Source: Candidatus Gastranaerophilales bacterium
GTDB lineage: Bacteria; Cyanobacteriota; Vampirovibrionia; Gastranaerophilales; Gastranaerophilaceae
Length of the DNA: 64,000 nucleotides
Reading direction: 5' to 3'
Assembly: GCA_944323595.1 (NCBI GenBank)
Contig: CALUTF010000006.1
Span: forward strand, 1 to 64,000
The translations under genes were made by a program, and so were the position numbers. The notes beneath the pieces were generated by a model, which saw only the letters and a list, made by a program, of their open reading frames with translations, was not told where the DNA came from and searched no databases. Shown here one piece after another: positions 6,762 to 64,000 of this stretch. The first letter of the stretch is position 1. Each line of letters opens with the position of its first letter.

Positions 6762-7388
6762 TTATGATTCTTTTAAATGTTTGAAATGTTTATAAATATA
6801 CAAAACGCCTAGTACTGCAACAACCAGTACAATCAATATGTCAAACTTGTGCCATAGGTGTTTAAACATTTCCATGTTCTGACCGAATTTTACGCCGACA
6901 TATACCAGAAGATAACTCCATACAAGAGAACCTAAAAAGGTTAATGTAAAAAATATTCTTTTTCTGGCTTTTAAAATTCCGGCAGGCAGTGAGATAAATG
7001 TTCTTATAACCGGCAGCATTCTGCATATAAAAAATGCCCAGTCGCCGTATTTTTCTACCCATTTATCAGCATCTTCAAGGTCTTTATGAGAAATCAAAAA
7101 GTATTTCCCGTATTTTTCTATAAACTGACGTCCGCCAAAGTAGCCAAGATAATATGATGGGATTGAACCCAGAACACATCCAAAAGCACCTGCCCACGCC
7201 GCTACATGGAAGTTCATTTCCCCCTTACTTACTATATATCCCGCAAAAGGTAGAATAGCTTCGCTCGGCAGCGGTATATTACAGGATTCTATTGCCATAA
7301 GCAGGCTTATACCAAACGGTCCTAAATATGTAATTACATGTTCTATAAAACTTACAAGATGAGATAAAATCAGATTAATGAATTCCAT
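6762..7388 (-). CDS. DedA-family membrane protein
   Basis: About 208 residues with 5-6 hydrophobic segments. It carries DedA/VTT signatures: ESCNIPLPSE in the first half, GSIPSYYLGYFGG in the middle, and the FFICRMLPVIRTFISLPAG block typical of DedA proteins. Family members translocate undecaprenyl phosphate or other phospholipids across the inner membrane and support proton-motive-force homeostasis. I place the start at the ATG at 7388, preceded by GGGGGAG; an upstream TTG overlaps that ribosome-binding site and is less likely. Confidence 0.9.
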   Translation of the reverse strand: MEFINLILSHLVSFIEHVITYLGPFGISLLMAIESCNIPLPSEAILPFAGYIVSKGEMNFHVAAWAGAFGCVLGSIPSYYLGYFGGRQFIEKYGKYFLISHKDLEDADKWVEKYGDWAFFICRMLPVIRTFISLPAGILKARKRIFFTLTFLGSLVWSYLLVYVGVKFGQNMEMFKHLWHKFDILIVLVVAVLGVLYIYKHFKHLKES

Positions 7389-7478
7389 ATGCTCCCCCAA
7401 TTTTTTGCTTCTTTATCTTACCAGAAACAAGAGAAAATTAAAACTTTTATACAATTCGCAAATTATTAAACGACAAGT

Positions 7479-9023
7479 TTATTTTTGGCTGTCTGTGTTT
7501 GTTTTTAAATAAAATGCAAACGGTATAAGCAAAAATGCTATCAGTGCAAATATCGTAAAAACATCGACATAAGCCATTAAACGTGATTGCGTCAAAAGTG
7601 ATTTGTAAAGATACATGTTTGTCTTTGTGCCGGCAAAGGTTCCGGAGGCATTTGCCATAAATGTGTGCACAAGTGATGAGAATTTTTGTTGAAAAATCAG
7701 GTTGAAATTCGATAAATTTTTGACCAGATAAACCTGATGGATTTGCGCATGACGGGCAACAAGAGTGGATGCTACAGATGCTATTACTGCAGTCATTGTA
7801 CTTTTACATAAATTGTGGAGACTTGCTCCGTTTGTCAGTTCTGATTTTGGTAATGTTCCTAAAACTAACGCCGATACAGGGATAAATGTCATAATAACTC
7901 CAACTCCCATAAGCACCTGGGGAATAGCTATATAAATAAATGATACACTAAGGTTCAGATTTATAAAAAATAAAATTGAAATACCTAAAAAGAAAAAGCC
8001 GAGAGCTATTAATATCCTGTTGTCAAAAATTTTCATTAACGGATTTATAGCAATCATCATTAATACACATGATACTATCCTTGGCGCGAGTGCAAATCCG
8101 CTTAAAATCGCAGTATAACCCATTAGATTCTGCAGAAACTGCGGGATAAGTACAATGCTCGAAAATACAAGCATATTAATTGATGCGCTTAAAATTGTGC
8201 CAATTAGGAAGTTTCTGTCTTTGAATAATCTTAAATTAATCAAAGGTGATTTGCATTCAATTTCCCAAACAATAAAGAATGCAAGTGCGCACGCAGAAAA
8301 ACCTGCAAGCCATGAAATCCAGGCACAATCAAACCAGTTGTATTGCTGCCCCTTGTCCAATACAACCTGCATTGAAAGAAGCCATAATACAAGCGCAACC
8401 ATTCCCGGAAAGTCAGTTTTTGTATGATGTTTTTCGGTTTCAATTTCTTCAATATTAGCATGAACCATTGATATGGAAAGAATTCCCACAGGAATATTAA
8501 CGAGATAAATCCACTGCCAATCCGCGTTATCAACAATAAAGCCGCCGAAAGTCGGGCCTAAAATGGCAAATACCATTACTGCAAGCCCGTACAAGCTCAT
8601 TGCAATACCTCTTTTATCAGGAGGAAATGCAGCAAGCAAAATAGCCTGTGATACAGGTGTCATCGGCCCTCCGCCGATACCTTGTATTAACCGTCCAAGT
8701 ACCATTAAATTCAGGTTAGGCGCCATTGCACAAATAAGTGAACCTATTGTAAATATTCCGATAAATATTTTCAAAAAACGTTTTCTTCCCAAAACGCTCT
8801 CAATCCAGCCTGACATTAGAATAAGACAGGCGTTTGCTATCATATAAGATGTTATAATCCAGTTTGCCTCATCAATTGTTGAGCCGAAATAGCCGGAAAT
8901 ATGCGGGATTGCAACATTAGTTGCCGATGTTGCAAGGCATGAAAATGATGTCGGCAGAAGAATTGAAAATGCCACAAGCCATAACGGTGCGTGGTGAGGT
9001 TTTGAGATAACGGCTGCTTGCAT
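7479..9023 (-). CDS. DHA2-type (EmrB/QacA) multidrug MFS transporter
   Basis: A 514-residue drug:proton antiporter with about 14 membrane segments. Diagnostic blocks are NVAIPHISGYF near the N-terminus, GRLIQGIGGGPMTPVS, and GPTFGGFIVDNADWQWIYLV, all typical of EmrB-like proteins that pump hydrophobic drugs together with an EmrA adaptor and an outer-membrane channel. The 5' end overlaps the remnant of an emrA-like gene: its ATG sits inside the truncated adaptor frame and has no ribosome-binding site, so expression may depend on translation coming through the adaptor fragment. The transporter itself looks intact. Confidence 0.9.
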   Translation of the reverse strand: MQAAVISKPHHAPLWLVAFSILLPTSFSCLATSATNVAIPHISGYFGSTIDEANWIITSYMIANACLILMSGWIESVLGRKRFLKIFIGIFTIGSLICAMAPNLNLMVLGRLIQGIGGGPMTPVSQAILLAAFPPDKRGIAMSLYGLAVMVFAILGPTFGGFIVDNADWQWIYLVNIPVGILSISMVHANIEEIETEKHHTKTDFPGMVALVLWLLSMQVVLDKGQQYNWFDCAWISWLAGFSACALAFFIVWEIECKSPLINLRLFKDRNFLIGTILSASINMLVFSSIVLIPQFLQNLMGYTAILSGFALAPRIVSCVLMMIAINPLMKIFDNRILIALGFFFLGISILFFINLNLSVSFIYIAIPQVLMGVGVIMTFIPVSALVLGTLPKSELTNGASLHNLCKSTMTAVIASVASTLVARHAQIHQVYLVKNLSNFNLIFQQKFSSLVHTFMANASGTFAGTKTNMYLYKSLLTQSRLMAYVDVFTIFALIAFLLIPFAFYLKTNTDSQK

Positions 9024-54418: not shown

Positions 54419-56476
54419 TTACTCGCTGCAGCCAAAAGCGATGGTGATATGTTCTCTAGGGTTAACAGCGGATATTTTGTATCCTTTAGGGTCCACAAGG
54501 TAAGCAAATTCATCGCCTGTTGTTTGGAATAAGCCCATTGTACCTGATAAAGCTGTTCTTGTAACGTCAACAGGAGCTTTAACAGTTTCCCACAATCCGT
54601 CGCCGAGGTTTCTTGCAGCAGCGCCGAATTTACCCTGGAATGCGTGTCCTAACATATAACCTGCGTCGTTAGAAACGTTTTCAGCAGCGTTACCAACGTT
54701 AGTTAATATACCGCCTGCTGTTCTGCCTACTATACCCACAAGTGAACCTGCGAGTGTAAACGGCATTTCAACAAGTCTTGCAACAGGGTTAACTTGTTTT
54801 GACTTGTTAACCTGTGCCTGCAGGATTTGTTTTGGCAGGTGAGCTTTGCAATCGCCGTTTTTGATTGTTGTGAATGACAATTTTAAAGCACCTTTATCGC
54901 ATCCTGACGGTCTGATAACTTCTACTACCTGACCTGTAACTGTTGAGCCGCAAGGGTAAGTTACGCCGTCAATAGTTACATCTTCAAGGGTATTTGCTCT
55001 GAAGTACTGACCTACGTGAGATGATTTAGCTGTAAGCTGGTCAATCATTGCTAATTTCAAAGTAGGAATTTTAACGATTTCTTCTTGTTCAATGAAAGCA
55101 TTTTTCTCTATAGGACAAGCAGGGCAAATGTTGTTTGCGGTTTTCGGATTTGTGTCATAACCGAGTTCTACGCGGACAGTTTGCATCATAGAAGCAATTT
55201 CTGCTCTGGATGCATCTTTATTAGGCGCAATAGTGTTCGGGTTAGGCATATCTTTCAATGCACCTGCCTGAAGTGATTTAGCGATAGGTATTCTTGCCCA
55301 GTTAGGAACTGAAGCACCGTCGCAGTACTGGCTTAAGATTTCATCTGCTTTACAGTTATCAATGTCGCAGGTAATACCTTTGGCGATAGAAGTTAACGCT
55401 TCTGCTCTTGTTACAGGGTTTTGCGGTTTAAATTGACCGCCGGGGTAGCCTGCAAGTAAGTCTTCGTCAACTGCTTTGGCAATTGCTCCGTTTGCCCAGT
55501 TGCTGGCAGGTACGTCTGTAAAGAGATTATCTCTGCAGCCGCAAGGCTCCATGTTGAAACCTTTTACAAGAATTGTTGCAAATTCTGCACGGGTAATATC
55601 TTTATTAGGTTTGAACATTCCGTCAGGATAGCCTACTACTACGTCATTTATTGCTAATTTATCGATATCGCAGGAAGCCCAATAGCTTTCCGGAACATCA
55701 GGAAACTGACATCCGCCTGATGATAAATTAGCTGCAGCACCTGTCGGGGCAGGTTCTGTTATTGTATAGGGTACGAAATTTCTTTTAATGGCATCAATAG
55801 AGTTTGCTGTTTGCATATCAATAGCACAATTGTTGCCATCCATAGTCATTTCGTTTCTCATAATCGGAATACCGTTATGTCTTGTCGGAGCTTCATTAAG
55901 TGACGGAAGTTCGCTTGCTGCACCTGTTACCTGACCTTGAGAAGCAACGGTGACACCGCTTATGTTAGATGACATTCTGCTTGCAGGGCATCCGTTCATG
56001 ATATTTTCTGTAGAAAGTATTGAATTTGCAGGTTCACCAACATAATTGTTAGAACCGTATATTGCACTTGGATATCCGTAAACCTGTTTCATATCTTTTC
56101 TGTCGGGTTTACCGGTTTGCGGGCAAAGTGCACAAGCCGGCTCTGCAGGTTTGTCACAGCTTACTTCATCGTTGCAGCCGCAGTCTGATTTTTGCGGCGG
56201 GCATGGATCGTCATCTTTGCAAGGGTCCTTGCATGGATCCTTACAAGGATCCGGTTTTTTGCAGCCACAATCCGGAGCCGGTTTTTTGCACTTGCTGCAA
56301 GTTGATTGATCTTTAGTAATCGGACATGCAGGTCCTGTAACTACAGGCAATGGTTCTGCGCATGGTGCAGGGGTTTCCGGTGCTGCACATGGACAAGCTG
56401 CCATTGCTTGATTCAAGGAACACGTTGCTATTCCAACGGCAATTGCAGCTGCCACAGTAAGTTTTTTAATAGTCAT
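54419..56476 (-). CDS. SLH-domain cell-surface protein with Cys-rich N-terminus
   Basis: A 685-residue exported protein. Signal peptide (KLTVAAAIAVGIATCSLNQAMA) after a consensus AAGGAGG site. Residues 27-125 are rich in Cys, Pro and Asp, including tandem DPCK repeats. Three S-layer homology domains span about 255-435 (FPDVPESYWASCDIDKLAINDVVVGYPDGMF; TDVPASNWANGAIAKAVDEDLLAGYPGGQF). A beta domain near 480-560 (TYPCGSTVTGQVVEVI) follows, and then a Gly/Ala helix-rich end. SLH domains hold proteins to peptidoglycan-linked polymers. This is the layout of cyanobacterial envelope proteins, although no porin barrel is obvious. Confidence 0.85.
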   Translation of the reverse strand: MTIKKLTVAAAIAVGIATCSLNQAMAACPCAAPETPAPCAEPLPVVTGPACPITKDQSTCSKCKKPAPDCGCKKPDPCKDPCKDPCKDDDPCPPQKSDCGCNDEVSCDKPAEPACALCPQTGKPDRKDMKQVYGYPSAIYGSNNYVGEPANSILSTENIMNGCPASRMSSNISGVTVASQGQVTGAASELPSLNEAPTRHNGIPIMRNEMTMDGNNCAIDMQTANSIDAIKRNFVPYTITEPAPTGAAANLSSGGCQFPDVPESYWASCDIDKLAINDVVVGYPDGMFKPNKDITRAEFATILVKGFNMEPCGCRDNLFTDVPASNWANGAIAKAVDEDLLAGYPGGQFKPQNPVTRAEALTSIAKGITCDIDNCKADEILSQYCDGASVPNWARIPIAKSLQAGALKDMPNPNTIAPNKDASRAEIASMMQTVRVELGYDTNPKTANNICPACPIEKNAFIEQEEIVKIPTLKLAMIDQLTAKSSHVGQYFRANTLEDVTIDGVTYPCGSTVTGQVVEVIRPSGCDKGALKLSFTTIKNGDCKAHLPKQILQAQVNKSKQVNPVARLVEMPFTLAGSLVGIVGRTAGGILTNVGNAAENVSNDAGYMLGHAFQGKFGAAARNLGDGLWETVKAPVDVTRTALSGTMGLFQTTGDEFAYLVDPKGYKISAVNPREHITIAFGCSE

Positions 56477-57633: not shown

Positions 57634-58239
57634 TTAACGAACTTTGTTTTCTTCACCTTTTAGCAGCCGTTTAATGTTTTCTCTGTGCAAATATATGATG
57701 TATACTGCTCCAAGTGCACAATAGCCTATATACGCAACAGGTGCTTTCAAGCCCCACATGATGAACGGCGACAACGCCAGCGCAATTATAGAACCGAGAG
57801 ATACATATTTTGAGGTGTATGTTATTATTCCCCATACAACCGCTATGATAAGACCTGCAATCCAGTTGAGTGCCAGAATTGTTCCTACGCCTGAGGCAAC
57901 AGATTTGCCGCCTGTGAATTTAAGGAAGATTGATTTACTGTGCCCTAAAATTACAGCAACAGCCGCTAATACCGGTAATAATCCTATTCCGGTAAAAGAT
58001 GTAGTGAAAAGTTTTGCCAGTACGACAGGCAATGCCCCTTTAAATGCATCCAGCAGCATTACAATGAAAAACCATTTTTTCCCCATTACACGTTTTACAT
58101 TTGTTGCCCCTGTTGAACCGGAACCTATTGTTCTTATATCCTGTCCGGTAAATAGTTTGACTATTATATAACCCGTCGGGATTGAACCTATTAAGTATGC
58201 TGCAATAACTACTATAGCTGTTTCTATAATTTTTTCCAT
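57634..58239 (-). CDS. plsY: Glycerol-3-phosphate acyltransferase PlsY
   Basis: A 201-residue polytopic membrane enzyme that puts the acyl group of acyl-phosphate (from PlsX) on glycerol 3-phosphate. Family motifs: YLIGSIPTGYIIVKLFTGQDIRTIGSGSTGATN (motif 1), GHSKSIFLKFTGGKSVASGVGT (motif 2) and the C-terminal HRENIKRLLKGEENK (motif 3). It completes the phospholipid entry pathway with the plsX-fab cluster. Confidence 0.96.
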   Translation of the reverse strand: MEKIIETAIVVIAAYLIGSIPTGYIIVKLFTGQDIRTIGSGSTGATNVKRVMGKKWFFIVMLLDAFKGALPVVLAKLFTTSFTGIGLLPVLAAVAVILGHSKSIFLKFTGGKSVASGVGTILALNWIAGLIIAVVWGIITYTSKYVSLGSIIALALSPFIMWGLKAPVAYIGYCALGAVYIIYLHRENIKRLLKGEENKVR

Positions 58240-58353: not shown

Positions 58354-59289
58354 GTGATAAGGTTACTTAATTTGGTAAAAAAAATTCTGTCAATAATAAT
58401 CTGTTTCACATTGCTTGCCGCACCGGTTCTTGCTGCGGAAACTTCTGAAGTGCAATATGATTTCAGTGATGAAGCGCAAATGAAATTTAATCAAAGTGAA
58501 GATATTTATAAACCTCTTAATAATACAAATACAATTGATAATACCTTTCAGGAAAATTTAAATAATCCTCAGGGACATAAATTTAAACGAACAAAAGAAA
58601 AAAAACATGAAGAAATAGAAGAGGTTCATCTGGATGCTCCGGCAGAAATTCCGCAAATTCAGGTGCCGAAATATGACCCGAAAGCACAGCAGCTTCAGGG
58701 AAGAGTTGTTTACGTACCGCAGGGAACTGTCGTCAATATTCAGCTTCAATCGGGTATAAGTTCCGGCAGTTTGGACGAAAATGACAGATTGACTGCAATT
58801 TTACCTGAAAACTGGGTTTATAACGGTAATTTAATTGCACCGGCAGGCAGCCTTGTTTACGGTACTGCCATTGATGCAACACCTGCAGGTTATGCTTACG
58901 GAAGCGGCGCTATGGAACTTATTTTTGATAAGATTATGACTCCTGACGGACAGGTTTATAATATTAATGCAGAAAAAATCAGGCTGGAAGCTGACAGCAG
59001 CCGCGGTAAAAATATGACAAGAGATGTCCTAGTAGGTGCGGGAATAGGGCTTCTTGCAGGATTGTTAATGACGGCTCTCGGGGCTAATTTTTACGGCGGT
59101 GACAATAATTATGCACAGGCAATGCTTATATACGGAGCTGCCGGTGCTGCAGGTGGCGGAATTAAAGGCGTGGCTTCCCGCGGCGATGACGTATCTATTG
59201 ATCCGAATACCGTTATTCAGCTTAAACTGCTTGAACCGCTCCAGGTTGTTCCGCAAAACGTCGATACACAATTGCCTGCTCAGTTTTAA
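58354..59289 (+). CDS. Secreted glycine-zipper protein with TrbI/VirB10-like body
   Basis: A 311-residue exported protein: signal peptide ending in TLLAAPVLA; Asn/Glu/Lys-rich linker (residues 30-110); a beta domain with VPQGTVVNIQLQSGISSGSLDENDRLTAILPENWVYNGNLIAPAGSLVYGTAI, resembling VirB10/TrbI-type barrels; and a glycine-zipper helix (DVLVGAGIGLLAGLLMTALGANFYGG). It probably sits in the envelope. The start is a GTG after GGAAG. It opens a run of five same-direction genes to 63587. Confidence 0.75.
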   Translation: MIRLLNLVKKILSIIICFTLLAAPVLAAETSEVQYDFSDEAQMKFNQSEDIYKPLNNTNTIDNTFQENLNNPQGHKFKRTKEKKHEEIEEVHLDAPAEIPQIQVPKYDPKAQQLQGRVVYVPQGTVVNIQLQSGISSGSLDENDRLTAILPENWVYNGNLIAPAGSLVYGTAIDATPAGYAYGSGAMELIFDKIMTPDGQVYNINAEKIRLEADSSRGKNMTRDVLVGAGIGLLAGLLMTALGANFYGGDNNYAQAMLIYGAAGAAGGGIKGVASRGDDVSIDPNTVIQLKLLEPLQVVPQNVDTQLPAQF

Positions 59290-59324
59290 TATGTTACAAT
59301 TTATGCAAATAAAGGATGTTTTTT

Positions 59325-59993
59325 ATGAATAAAAGATTAATTACTTTAGGGTTGATAATTCTGGCAGTTTCTCTGGTGCTTGCTCTTGTGGTGTCACTTG
59401 CCAGAAAGATTAAAATTGATGACTTCAAGCCTGCGGCAGTAATTTTTGTGGTGGATTCTTCCGCCTCCAATCAGGAAAAACTCCCTGAACAAAAGAAAAC
59501 TCTGAGGCAAATTTGTAATATTTTAGATCCGGAAGATCAAATAAAAATTATTAAAGTATCTGAAGATTCTTATTTGATATATGAAGGAACGCCGCATAAC
59601 GGCAGCGGTATTACAAAAGCAATGGATGCTTTTACTGAATTTGAGCCTGATGATTACGGCACAGCATACGGTGTCGGATTGAAAAAAGCTATGAACCATG
59701 CACTTACAATGTACGGCGAGGGATATATTCCAGCGGTTGTCGTAATCGGTGATTTGGAAAATGAGGGCGCTGTGGATAAACAAATTAACTGGGATACTTT
59801 AGCGCAAAATGTTGCTAATGTTAAAGCACAGGCTCCTGAATTGGCTATGATGTTTTTGTATGCCCATCCGGAAAAACTGGATAAGGTGAAAGAGCTGCTT
59901 TCTCCTGTTCTCGGGGAAACTAAACTTGTTATTTCTCCGGAACAAACTATTGATAAATCTGTTAGAAAATTTCTTCACGCTATCGGAAGATAA
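59325..59993 (+). CDS. Membrane-anchored VWA-domain-like protein
   Basis: About 222 residues: N-terminal membrane anchor (RLITLGLIILAVSLVLALVVSL), then a von Willebrand A-like domain. The MIDAS motif is DSSAS at residues 44-48, a later Thr/Gly segment reads YGTAYGVGLKKAM, and VVVIGDLENEG is the third part. Such domains bind metal ions and protein ligands. ATG 59325 has GGATG before it. It lies 20 bases before the FHA-like gene. Confidence 0.8.
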   Translation: MNKRLITLGLIILAVSLVLALVVSLARKIKIDDFKPAAVIFVVDSSASNQEKLPEQKKTLRQICNILDPEDQIKIIKVSEDSYLIYEGTPHNGSGITKAMDAFTEFEPDDYGTAYGVGLKKAMNHALTMYGEGYIPAVVVIGDLENEGAVDKQINWDTLAQNVANVKAQAPELAMMFLYAHPEKLDKVKELLSPVLGETKLVISPEQTIDKSVRKFLHAIGR

Positions 59994-60013
59994 GAAAAAG
60001 AGGTAAATAAAAT

Positions 60014-61630
60014 ATGACAATTGTAATTTCTTCTTCTAAAAATGAAAAAATCTTTATTGATAAAGATATGATTAACATCGGTACTAATCCTAATTGTGAT
60101 TTTCAACTGGATTTGGATTTTGATTTGTTGATAACTGTGCAGTATATCAAGGCTGATAATAAATGTATAGTTATGAACACATTCCACAGCGACAAGATTT
60201 TCTTTAAGGGCGAACCTTTCGGCAAAATTGAAGTCGGAAATATTTGTAAACTTATGACGGCGGATTCTTCCGAGTTTATAAGTATAAGAGTTTTGTCAGA
60301 AGAAAACGATTCTCCAAGAAAAACTATCAAAGCTATCGGGGAAGAAGATTTTACAGAAAACGATATTAAACGCCTCTACGGAAGTGATTCCGATCCTATT
60401 ACCCGTGTGAAAATCGAAAAGCAGAAAGAAGATATTGAAAGCGCACGTGTTGCTATTATTAAACAATCTGGATATACAATTTCAGATTTAAAACAGAAGC
60501 TCTCTTCAAATTTTAAGACAAGTTTATTTTTACATATAGCAATGTTTTTCGGCGCTGTTATGTGTGCATTTGGGTTATCAAATTATTTGATGGGCTTATC
60601 TATTGCGGATTCCGCAAATTATATGCATTTGCCGACTAATATTAAAATCTGGTTTGTATATTCAATTCTTGTTTACGGAATATGTCTTCTTATGAAACAG
60701 GGTGTTTACCAGTCACTGGTTAATAAATCTGTTAGGGAAGTGCTGCCGACATCAAGATTTGCTGAAACTTTCTTCATCGGTTTTGCTTCAATATTAATGC
60801 TCGGCGTTTATGCAATAAACCTTGTTTATTTTATGAATGTTAAGGATTTTGTTGTCTTTGCCATATTTATTTCATTGTTCTTTGCCGGTTTGACTGCCGG
60901 ACTTGCTGTCGGATGCGGGTATTTCAAATTTAACGGACATGCACTGTCTCTTAATCTCAACAAATTTGAGTACAGGGAAGATTTCGAAGCTGTTTTGAAA
61001 GCATACAGACAGTGGATTGAAAGATATATTAATAACCTTGGTAAGACTAAAATTCAATATATTAAAGATAAATTATTCAATTTACAGATAAAATCTGTTT
61101 TTGAAATAGTTATCGGGCTTTTGACAGCTCCGTTTCTGGCATACGGTGTTTCTAATACTCTTGCAATGTGCTTCCCTGAAGCTGCCGGATGGGTTAGAAT
61201 TTCCGGTTTGAGGATAAGTCCTGTGTTCCTTGTACTGGCTACATTCTTGATTATTTTTGCATTTTTCTCTTTTGTAAGCGCTTTTACAGCTACGAAGAAA
61301 ATTCAGGCATCAGAAGTAATCAAACATGATGGTTTTAGTGATTTTATGCATCACGGTGTAGATATATACGGGCTTGAGGGTGTTAGAAAAATTAATTCTG
61401 ATAAAATTCGTGCGCTTGCAATTGCATGTTCAATAATTTTTATTGAATTTGCGATGAACGTTTCGTATTTTATGACAGAGATAGGCGGTGATTTACAGGG
61501 AATTTTCCTCAGTTTGATTGCAGCTCTTGTTCCGACTGCACTTTTGATTGCAGAAACCTTGATGCTCAGTCAGACCCGTTTTGAAATTTTTGCCTGCGAT
61601 GAACTGATTTCTAAAATAGATAAAGATTAG
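60014..61630 (+). CDS. Polytopic membrane protein with N-terminal FHA-like domain
   Basis: A 538-residue protein. Residues 1-100 look like a forkhead-associated domain (SKNEKIFIDKDMINIGTNPNCDFQLD, with the GTNPNCDFQL strand similar to GRxxxCDI), followed by a charged linker and then about 8 membrane helices with two amphipathic stretches (about 170-525). FHA domains read phospho-threonine, so this may be a signalling or gating membrane protein. The gene is coupled to the TonB-like gene downstream by 2 bases and follows the VWA gene. The FHA call is moderate because the Ser/His ligands are incomplete. Confidence 0.65.
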   Translation: MTIVISSSKNEKIFIDKDMINIGTNPNCDFQLDLDFDLLITVQYIKADNKCIVMNTFHSDKIFFKGEPFGKIEVGNICKLMTADSSEFISIRVLSEENDSPRKTIKAIGEEDFTENDIKRLYGSDSDPITRVKIEKQKEDIESARVAIIKQSGYTISDLKQKLSSNFKTSLFLHIAMFFGAVMCAFGLSNYLMGLSIADSANYMHLPTNIKIWFVYSILVYGICLLMKQGVYQSLVNKSVREVLPTSRFAETFFIGFASILMLGVYAINLVYFMNVKDFVVFAIFISLFFAGLTAGLAVGCGYFKFNGHALSLNLNKFEYREDFEAVLKAYRQWIERYINNLGKTKIQYIKDKLFNLQIKSVFEIVIGLLTAPFLAYGVSNTLAMCFPEAAGWVRISGLRISPVFLVLATFLIIFAFFSFVSAFTATKKIQASEVIKHDGFSDFMHHGVDIYGLEGVRKINSDKIRALAIACSIIFIEFAMNVSYFMTEIGGDLQGIFLSLIAALVPTALLIAETLMLSQTRFEIFACDELISKIDKD

Positions 61631-61632
61631 TC

Positions 61633-62460
61633 ATGAACATTTTAAAATTTCTTTCATTAACAATCTTAATTTTAATTGTGACCGCCGCTATTGTCCTTAC
61701 AAAACCGGCGATGCATAAACCTGCGGTATTGGAGGATGCATCATTTACTCTCGCGTCTCTGGAAAAGAAAGTCCCTGTAAAAAAGGTGGAAACAGATTTT
61801 CAAACTCCGCTTCCTCCTGCACAAAAGACAGTTGTCGAAAAACCTGCGCCGGTGGTTAAAAGGATTGTAAAGATTGTTCGGCAGGAAGTTCCGGCACCTG
61901 TTCAGAATGTTGTTGTAAAAGAACAGCCGGTAAAGCAAAAAACAGAAACAGTTAAGAACGTAAAAACTGAAAAGCCGGCAGTAACACTGCCTGTTAAAAC
62001 AGTTCAGGCAGCAAATGAACCGGTTGAAATTGAACAGCCGGTTAAACTGGAGGTGGAAGAAAAACCGGTTAAAGTTGTAACAACTCCGGTTAGTACCGCT
62101 CCATTGACGGAAAAAGAAGAGATTATTGCATGGAATAAATGGCGTAGTGATTTGCAAAATAAAGTTATGCGCGATTCCAGAATAAGTGCACCTGTCGGAA
62201 CTACTTTTTATTTTTCATGTACTGTGGATAAATTCGGGAATATCTCAAACATAAATACATGGTCTGATAATGATTATTACACTCCGCTTGCCAAACGGGT
62301 TATAAAACCTGTTCTCAGCAGTTATCAAAACCAGCCTATTTTAAAATTTCCTGACAGAACACGGCGGACTATTACAAATGTAAACGGGTCTTTTACTATG
62401 GCGTTTACTGACAGGTATTCAACTCCGGCAGATTATTCGGATTATGAAAGGATAAAATAG
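61633..62460 (+). CDS. TonB-like protein 1
   Basis: A 275-residue protein with TonB organisation: one N-terminal membrane helix (LSLTILILIVTAAIVLT), a Pro/Lys/Val-rich spacer of some 130 residues (VKQKTETVKNVKTEKPAV type), and a C-terminal globular domain with WNKWRSDLQNKVM and the FYFSCTVDKFGNISNINTWSDN block. The spacer would cross the periplasm. ExbB/ExbD genes are not adjacent, although the FHA-like membrane protein might be a partner. It is adjacent to the following 45-residue gene without a gap. Confidence 0.75.
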   Translation: MNILKFLSLTILILIVTAAIVLTKPAMHKPAVLEDASFTLASLEKKVPVKKVETDFQTPLPPAQKTVVEKPAPVVKRIVKIVRQEVPAPVQNVVVKEQPVKQKTETVKNVKTEKPAVTLPVKTVQAANEPVEIEQPVKLEVEEKPVKVVTTPVSTAPLTEKEEIIAWNKWRSDLQNKVMRDSRISAPVGTTFYFSCTVDKFGNISNINTWSDNDYYTPLAKRVIKPVLSSYQNQPILKFPDRTRRTITNVNGSFTMAFTDRYSTPADYSDYERIK

Positions 62461-62598
62461 ATGAGCAAAAATAAAATTTTCGTGCTTTTAATAATCATCG
62501 CAGCAATTTTTATAACGGCTGCCGCAGTTTATACAAGACCGGAACTGCATAAAACTTTTGAAATACAGATTTTGAAATTTATAAAGGCTGATAACTGA
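62461..62598 (+). CDS. 45-residue single-helix membrane protein
   Basis: Too short for usual gene finders. It reads MSKNKIFVLLIIIAAIFI, then TAAAVYTRPELHKTFEIQIL and FIKADN. One membrane helix is followed by TRPELHK, which parallels VLTKPAMHK just after the helix of TonB-like protein 1. It begins right after that gene's stop and shares its TGA with the ATG of the next gene (TGATG). It looks like the anchor of a TonB-like protein without the spacer and C-terminal domain. Confidence 0.7.
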   Translation: MSKNKIFVLLIIIAAIFITAAAVYTRPELHKTFEIQILKFIKADN

Positions 62599-63587
62599 TG
62601 TATAAATGTTCTGACTGCGGAAAAATTACCGATGAAAAACCTCAATACTGTGATTGCGGGAACAATGTTTTTATAGAAGTTGAACCTGAATCCGGTGTAT
62701 CTTCTGTTGGAAAGAAAGATACAACTGTACCTAAATCTTCGCCTCTTTCCTCTCAGGAGAAATTATCACTTGCTATATTTATACTCTGCCTTGTATGTGC
62801 GGTAATACCATGGTTTTTTGTGTTGCGTCCGCTTCCGGAAAATGAAGTTAAACATTCTGTTAAACCTGTTGAGGTTAAAAAAGATATACCTGCTTTTGAA
62901 ACATTATGGGATGATACTCCTGTAAAAGCAGCGGTACAGGAACCTGAACCTGTTGTTCAGACCGTTGAGGAGCCGCAGACAATTATAGAATATGTAACCC
63001 AGATTGTGCAGGTGCCGCGTCAGGAACCTAAAGCAGTATCACCTGCGCCTAAAACTCAGTCCAAACCTAAAAATACACAAACACAATCTGCCGCAAAACC
63101 AAAAACACAATCTCAAACAACAAACAAACCGCAAAGTCAGAATAAACCGGATGTTATTAACAGAATTGAGAAAAATTTGTCCCAAAATTCAGGACAGCAC
63201 ACTTCACATAGCAATACAACGGCCCAGAGTGCTTCAAAACAACAGCAGACAAAACCGGCGGTTGTAAAACCTAAACCTACTGCAGAGGAACTTGCAGCTC
63301 TTAATCAGTATAAAAACAATCTCCGTATGGTTTTACTTTCAAAATTAAATGTACAAAGCATTATTGGCGAGGGGGATTGTGATATTGAATTTGCTATTGA
63401 TTCAAACGGAAAACTTATCAATAGAAAATTTGCCAGACAATCTTCAAACAAAACTCTTAATGATGCTGTCTATTATATGCTGATGAGTGTTCCGGTTTAT
63501 CAAATTCCGCCAAAAGCTTATAAAGGTGAGACAATAAAGCTGCATTTTTATATCAATAACGGATATTACGAAATTAGTTTCAAATAA
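62598..63587 (+). CDS. TonB-like protein 2 with N-terminal zinc ribbon
   Basis: A 329-residue protein. Residues 1-25 form a small zinc ribbon (Cys4-x2-Cys7, Cys18-x-Cys20), then a membrane helix (LAIFILCLVCAVIPWFFVL, about 55-75), a Pro/Lys/Gln/Thr-rich spacer of about 150 residues (KPKTQSQTTNKPQSQNKP), and a TonB C-terminal-like fold with EGDCDIEFAIDSNGKLINRKFA and LPVYQIPPKAYKGETIKLHF-like blocks. The ribbon would lie in the cytosol. Translationally coupled to the preceding gene. Confidence 0.75.
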   Translation: MYKCSDCGKITDEKPQYCDCGNNVFIEVEPESGVSSVGKKDTTVPKSSPLSSQEKLSLAIFILCLVCAVIPWFFVLRPLPENEVKHSVKPVEVKKDIPAFETLWDDTPVKAAVQEPEPVVQTVEEPQTIIEYVTQIVQVPRQEPKAVSPAPKTQSKPKNTQTQSAAKPKTQSQTTNKPQSQNKPDVINRIEKNLSQNSGQHTSHSNTTAQSASKQQQTKPAVVKPKPTAEELAALNQYKNNLRMVLLSKLNVQSIIGEGDCDIEFAIDSNGKLINRKFARQSSNKTLNDAVYYMLMSVPVYQIPPKAYKGETIKLHFYINNGYYEISFK

Positions 63588-63588
63588 T

Positions 63589-63620
63589 AAAAAAGCCGAA
63601 AAATTTAATTCCGGCTTTTT
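63589..63620 (+). terminator. Bidirectional terminator
   Basis: Stem AAAAAGCCG / CGGCTTTTT with a 13-base loop, between the TonB-like gene and the converging partial gene. Confidence 0.8.
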
Positions 63621-63627
63621 GTTGTTA

Positions 63628-64000
63628 TTATTTATTTCCGTATTCAATTAGCATTTCAAGATGCTGCGGGAATTTTTGCGGGAATTTGTCAAATGGTGCC
63701 GTTCCTTTTACGATATCAAGAATTTCCTTATCAATTTCTTCGTTTCCGGAGCTTTGCTGTAGTGCACTTTTGATAAGTTTTCCGTCAGAATTTATGTCAA
63801 GATATATTTTTACCTGCGTTTCAGGTTTTGTCGAGAGATTTTTATTTAATCTTCTTGTTAATCTCAAGCTTATATTTGACATGTACGCTCTATCCGTATA
63901 CAGGCTTCCGTAAGGCATATATTTTACAAATGAATTGCTTGCCCCGTCAAAAACCTGAATGTATTTCAGTCTGCCTGTCGGATAATCATATATTGCATCA
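63628..64000 (-). CDS. TonB-like protein 3 (partial, 5' end outside the window)
   Basis: At least 124 residues remain. The frame stays open from the right edge (AIYDYPTGRLKYIQVFDGAS...). The C-terminal domain has VKIYLDINSDGKLIKSALQQSSGNEEIDKEILDIV and the closing LEMLIEYGNK, the same fold as the C-termini at 61633-63587 and common to TonB/AgmX-type energy transducers. Its N-terminal part cannot be seen. Confidence 0.75.
   Translation of the reverse strand, partial: DAIYDYPTGRLKYIQVFDGASNSFVKYMPYGSLYTDRAYMSNISLRLTRRLNKNLSTKPETQVKIYLDINSDGKLIKSALQQSSGNEEIDKEILDIVKGTAPFDKFPQKFPQHLEMLIEYGNK

Follow-up and report, generated by a model that had tools for sequence, protein, structure and literature searches.

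What does a set of TonB- and TolA-like proteins do when the genes around it encode no motor? In the well-studied cases, TonB/TolA-type force transducers are paired with motors of the ExbB/TolQ type. The question is raised by six codirectional genes on the plus strand at positions 58354-63587 of a 64,000-nucleotide stretch, the window of this study (bases 1-64000 of the 78,175-base-pair contig C6), from a Gastranaerophilaceae (Melainabacteria) genome of 2.05 Mb that is 98% complete. The operon is bounded by a divergent plsY gene (57634-58239) and a terminator. In order, it encodes a TrbI-like protein (P0001), a transmembrane (TM)-anchored VWA protein (P0002), a polytopic protein with an FHA fold (P0003), a TolA/TonB-like protein (P0004), a single-TM protein of 45 residues and a zinc-ribbon protein with a TonB_C domain. 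As a sequence-only reading of the window had described, the genes run in one direction with gaps of 35 (P0001/P0002, counted from the inner ATG at 59325), 20 (P0002/P0003), 2 (P0003/P0004) and 0 bases (P0004/45-residue open reading frame, ORF), and the last two are joined by a TGATG overlap; each ORF lies where it had been placed. A literature search for the gene set in Gastranaerophilales/Melainabacteria found no relevant paper.

The set is conserved well beyond this genome. Relatives of P0003, all of one family, were found by sequence search in 82 of 117 sampled genomes of the order, four of which keep the FHA-like domain only. Full-length P0003 and the tethered VWA protein occur together in the same 78 genomes and are both absent from the same 39, an agreement of 117/117. 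A P0003 profile search of 146 class and 244 phylum genomes gave no match outside the Gastranaerophilaceae. Near the 57 full-length P0003 copies examined lie a VWA gene in every case, a TonB-like gene in 56, a zinc-ribbon gene in 49 and a TrbI-like gene in 43; the one copy lacking a TonB-like gene (L043) ends near a contig edge. Because the set is kept in about 18 genera and the P0003/VWA agreement is complete, its conservation is more than chance, and the earlier proposal is borne out in so far as it claimed an envelope operon, not described before, that joins a membrane-held VWA domain to TolA/TonB-like arms. The outcome named in advance as refuting it, an unconserved gene order together with a lack of profile support, did not arise.

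Many genomes carry a second, paralogous operon. The VWA protein encoded near P0003 is of the tethered kind in 53 of the 57 copies and of the secreted kind only in the other four, where the secreted VWA genes lie nearby on the opposite strand, in one case four in tandem. On a tree of 27 P0003 proteins this state takes two changes; a replacement by the secreted kind is not proven, because the same genomes hold another copy with a tethered VWA. The tandem of four (L073:1672-5439, minus strand) is divergent from a paralogous operon, and secreted VWA genes akin to these are found close to six other copies. An MlaD/MCE-like gene (L071:10315-11199) is found immediately downstream of a paralogous operon.

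Both arms appear to combine a TM segment, a disordered Pro-rich linker and a TonB/TolA C-terminal fold, as judged from a structural model for P0004 and from profiles for the zinc-ribbon protein. In the AlphaFold2 (AF2) model of P0004 (275 residues; 61633-62460), a TM segment (residues 2-23) and a disordered Pro/Lys-rich linker (30-158) precede a well-predicted C-terminal domain (160-262). The 20 best structural matches of this domain are all C-terminal domains of TolA or TonB; the top Z score of 7.8 is modest, and the argument therefore rests on the consistency of the match list. P0004 has no Pfam match, and a PDB sequence search with its profile gave no usable match. The zinc-ribbon protein (329 residues; 62598-63587) begins with a C4xxC7...C18xC20G zinc ribbon, whose four Cys are invariant in 32 sequences, followed by a TM segment, a Pro-rich linker and TonB_C. 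Its own TonB_2 and TonB_C scores fall below cut-off; of 32 orthologues, however, 31 match TonB_2 at E ≤ 1 (best 1.3e-8), and the top matches in a PDB sequence search are chains of TonB C-terminal domains (E 0.02). Between the two arm genes, an ORF of 45 codons (62461-62598) encodes a TM segment and a P-x-[M/L]-H-K motif in common with the N-terminus of P0004. Counterparts of 43-49 residues with the same TM segment and P-x-[M/L]-H-K ending lie between two TonB-like genes in many genera, and about half of them score 17-22 bits (E ≤ 1e-3) with the P0004-family (A4) profile; on these grounds of position and sequence we take the ORF to be real.

A further TonB-like gene converges on the operon across a stem-loop terminator (63590-63620), a 12-pair stem between A and T runs. 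It occupies 63628-64000 on the minus strand and is complete beyond the window edge, at C6:63628-64347. Its predicted product, a secreted TonB_C protein of 239 residues, scores 33.7 bits against PF13103 (TonB_2; cut-off 22), and homologues of the gene point at the operon in many relatives. Of the three or four TonB-like proteins of the sequence-only reading, P0004 is supported by structure though not by Pfam, the zinc-ribbon protein by TonB_2 in its orthologues, and the convergent protein by its own profile score.

P0002 (59325-59993, ATG start, with an in-frame ATG at 59316 as alternative start) scores 32.4 bits against PF13519 (cut-off 27). Its TM segment spans residues 8-26, and the residues of the metal ion-dependent adhesion site (MIDAS), D47, S49, S51, T116 and D146 (numbered from the start at 59316), are intact. 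Among 25 family sequences D47, S49 and T116 are invariant, and S51 and D146 are conserved in at least 90%. A PDB sequence search with the VWA profile gave no usable match.

P0003 (538 residues; 60014-61630) has no sequence match in Pfam, NCBIfam or the PDB, and a PDB sequence search with the profile of its FHA domain gave no usable match either. The AF2 model, with a mean predicted local distance difference test score of 82.6, shows an FHA fold (residues 1-95; 60014-60298), then long helices and eight TM segments. Residues 1-95 match the FHA structure 6ccd with a Z score of 12.9 and a root-mean-square deviation of 2.2 Å over 93 aligned residues, and nearly all matches listed are FHA domains. 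The sequence-only reading had called the protein FHA-like and polytopic, which holds for the fold but not for the Pfam FHA profile; of the domain families it named, VWA and TonB_C were recovered by profiles and FHA was not. The FHA domain accounted for most of the structural matches; Foldseek matches of the TM region to MATE and ABC exporters were not trusted. Loop charges, read from the sequence, fit an N-in/C-in topology. Conservation is concentrated in TM5-TM8 (residues 344-525; 61043-61588), with 45 invariant residues and a mean of 78%, against four invariant residues and 58% in TM1-TM4; the invariant, buried E478, N482, T508 and E514 of the TM5-TM8 core lie within or beside the membrane. 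An hhalign comparison of TM1-4 with TM5-8 scores 28.9 versus 12.9-14.3 in reversed controls, and about one third of 27 sequences exceed block-shuffled scores at the ~5% level, which is only suggestive of an internal duplication. Free-standing proteins of 99 residues equal to the FHA-like domain are encoded at L082:6021-6320 and L086:6539-6838 (minus strand), each adjoining a gene for an outer-membrane efflux (TolC-type) protein, in a genus most of whose members lack the remainder of the module.

We favour, with little more than even confidence, a Gastranaerophilaceae-specific trans-envelope assembly with P0003 as its inner-membrane hub. The degenerate FHA-fold domain of P0003 would serve as a protein-interaction platform in the cytoplasm, and its eight TM helices as the hub in the inner membrane. 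One or more single-TM partners would assemble on it: the tethered VWA protein, the TolA/TonB-like arm with its disordered linker, the TM-only companion and the second arm with its cytoplasmic zinc ribbon. In the periplasm, the domains of VWA and TonB/TolA-like type would then act on clients in the envelope or at the surface; the arms seem long enough to cross the periplasm, which suggests a machine spanning the envelope. The near-constant company of VWA and TonB-like genes, the shared distribution of P0003 and the tethered VWA, the folds, the intact MIDAS, the TM/PxMHK cassette common to P0004 and its small companion, the TM5-8 core and loop charges that fit an N-in/C-in topology all speak for such an assembly, as do two genome-wide observations given below, a TrbI-like paralogue in a TonB locus and the lack of a receptor plug.

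Several points weigh against it. What the conserved order and the co-occurrence show is a functional link, which need not mean a complex. The module is missing from 19 sampled genomes of the same family and is therefore dispensable within it, and some copies have only one of the two arms, or no TrbI-like gene beside them. The sampled genomes are mostly metagenome-assembled, and relatives are not independent observations. The clients are guesses, with the TrbI-like protein and the secreted TonB_C and VWA proteins of neighbouring genes as the best candidates.

If the arms do work, what would power them? The sole match to MotA_ExbB (PF01618) in the genome lies on contig C16 (L091:5139-8733, minus strand), where the gene order is TrbI-like, TonB, ExbB, ExbD, ExbD, then ftsH. 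The TrbI-like glycine-zipper gene that comes first is a paralogue of P0001, so that in this lineage the TrbI-like family is linked with TonB systems. The sequence-only reading had found neither exbB/exbD nor a receptor; this is correct locally for exbB/exbD and genome-wide for the receptor plug (PF07715, no match in the genome, controls positive), but not genome-wide for exbB/exbD. With no receptor plug, nutrient uptake via TonB-dependent receptors was rejected for this genome. A gene pair on contig C41 (L127:1384-3012, minus strand) encodes a polytopic protein resembling MotA and, after it, a MotB/ZorB-like protein with an OmpA domain, possibly a second 5:2 motor missed by PF01618.

Both TonB/TolA-like arms could be alternative outputs of the ExbB-ExbD-ExbD motor, with P0003 and the VWA protein only directing or regulating them. 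We regard this as unlikely. Each of the 58 genomes sampled from the class has an ExbB match, and those of the Gastranaerophilaceae have exactly one apiece; the motor locus includes a TrbI-like gene of its own, and its TonB carries an SxxxH motif (S-T-I-L-H) at the TM segment. That motif, however, is absent from the TM segments of all 36 P0004-type, 32 zinc-ribbon and 25 VWA proteins (0/93), and the arms' genes adjoin P0003, not the motor. The VWA segment likewise contains no His, Asp or Glu in any of the 25 sequences, and the operon includes no tolQ-like gene. With SxxxH missing from 93 sequences, Asp/Glu from the VWA TM segment and a receptor plug from the genome, the operon arms share the TonB/TolA architecture but not the coupling features tested.

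An improbable alternative is that the operon encodes a surface adhesion or gliding apparatus like the Agl-Glt machinery of Myxococcus, with VWA proteins that would be adhesin-like or load-bearing. Agl-Glt joins FHA and TonB-C-like domains in other combinations, with a motor (PMC3169522), and a VWA adhesin is added to it by CglB (Islam 2023, as cited in PMC12204202). This analogy, together with the arrays of secreted VWA genes beside some paralogous operons (four genes in L073), is countered by the lack of motor genes in the operon and by the placement of FHA and TonB_C on separate proteins, unlike in GltG.

P0003 could itself be an inner-membrane engine powered by ions, with no sequence relationship to ExbB/TolQ/MotA; it would drive the TonB/TolA-like and VWA arms through an ion path via E478, N482, T508 and E514. 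We hold this to be distinctly doubtful; its whole support is the conservation of TM5-8. A homology of P0003 to ExbB was considered and rejected at the sequence level: TM5 (TAPFLAYGVSNTL) resembles ExbB (APFLGLFGTVVRI), but hhalign scores are equalled by reversed and PlsY controls, and the PF01618 search of the genome did not find P0003.

The FHA fold of P0003 had also been taken to indicate phospho-signal-controlled assembly, a proposal that we now consider very unlikely. At the position of the phosphothreonine-binding Arg ('GR' turn), placed by strand order in the model and not by residue-level structural alignment, P0003 proteins have Thr in 14, Ser in nine and Asn in one of 24 sequences, and never Arg. 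The genome has no match to Pfam FHA (PF00498) or to Pkinase (PF00069), while control genomes match. It is more likely that the fold is degenerate and used for phospho-independent binding.

P0001 (311 residues; 58354-59289, GTG start) matches PF03743 weakly over residues 120-206 (E 1.2e-5; 25.7 bits, below the cut-off of 35). The TrbI profile matches 18 of 28 homologues, and the paralogue in the TonB/ExbBD locus, with 37.2 bits, exceeds the cut-off; a PDB sequence search with the P0001 (TrbI) profile gave only a weak cupin match. With a signal-like segment at its start and two glycine-rich segments, P0001 is, as far as its sequence can tell, a secreted TrbI/VirB10-like glycine-zipper protein. 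That the operon derives from, or is related to, a type IV secretion (VirB10) system is scarcely credible, since the resemblance to PF03743 is set against the signal-like start and glycine-rich segments, the paralogue's place in a TonB/ExbBD locus and the fact that no further gene of such a system was noticed in or around the operon, where no dedicated search (VirB4/VirB9/VirD4) was made.

Elsewhere around the operon, the minus strand encodes an SLH-domain protein (54419-56476) with Cys-rich PCKDPCKDPCKD repeats close to its N-terminus. Downstream, L002:8506-9549 (C6:66505-67548, minus strand) encodes a protein that matches no Pfam family and whose glycine loop (ELGSGQFGTVYKIDDEYALKLP) is kinase-like. 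This protein shares a short N-terminal motif (INFKS, VNFCA, PNFCG) with the products of L002:6426-7268 and 7289-7618 on the same strand, possibly a family-wide N-terminal signal.

In a common family of gut bacteria, gene order and co-occurrence thus connect TonB/TolA-like arms and a tethered VWA protein with a polytopic protein of another, undescribed kind. Should the complex exist, it would offer a second means of joining inner membrane and outer envelope, or else be a passive scaffold made from the same parts; either outcome would widen knowledge of envelope machines in those relatives of Cyanobacteria that do not photosynthesize. Like the TonB/TolA force transducers, the arms have a TM segment, a disordered Pro-rich linker and a TonB/TolA C-terminal fold; in contrast to them, they lack SxxxH, a linked ExbB/TolQ or ExbD/TolR and a receptor, are accompanied by P0003, and in one case carry a presumably cytoplasmic zinc ribbon. 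Tethered vWA transducers encoded next to tolQ-like genes are described in a survey of force transducers of the periplasm (PMC12204202, Mol Biol Evol 2025). P0002 resembles these in its single-TM tether and proposed action across the envelope, but its family lacks the SHLS motif and the TM aspartate (0/25), and its neighbour is P0003, not a tolQ-like gene.

The FHA-fold domain of P0003 has the fold of FHA domains such as Rv1747 FHA-1 (6ccd), whereas it is only ~5% identical and lacks the phosphothreonine-binding Arg. The likeness of P0001 to the TrbI/VirB10 C-terminal domain is confined to the weak profile match, and P0001 differs in being apparently secreted, in its glycine-rich segments and in its TonB-type gene contexts. 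Compared with Agl-Glt (GltG, GltJ; PMC3169522), no AglRQS-like genes adjoin the operon, which contains no MotA_ExbB match, and in P0003 the fusion partner of the FHA domain is a set of eight TM helices instead of TonB_C. What the two have in common, FHA, TonB-C-like and, via CglB as cited above, VWA parts in one envelope machine, is a likeness by domain combination.

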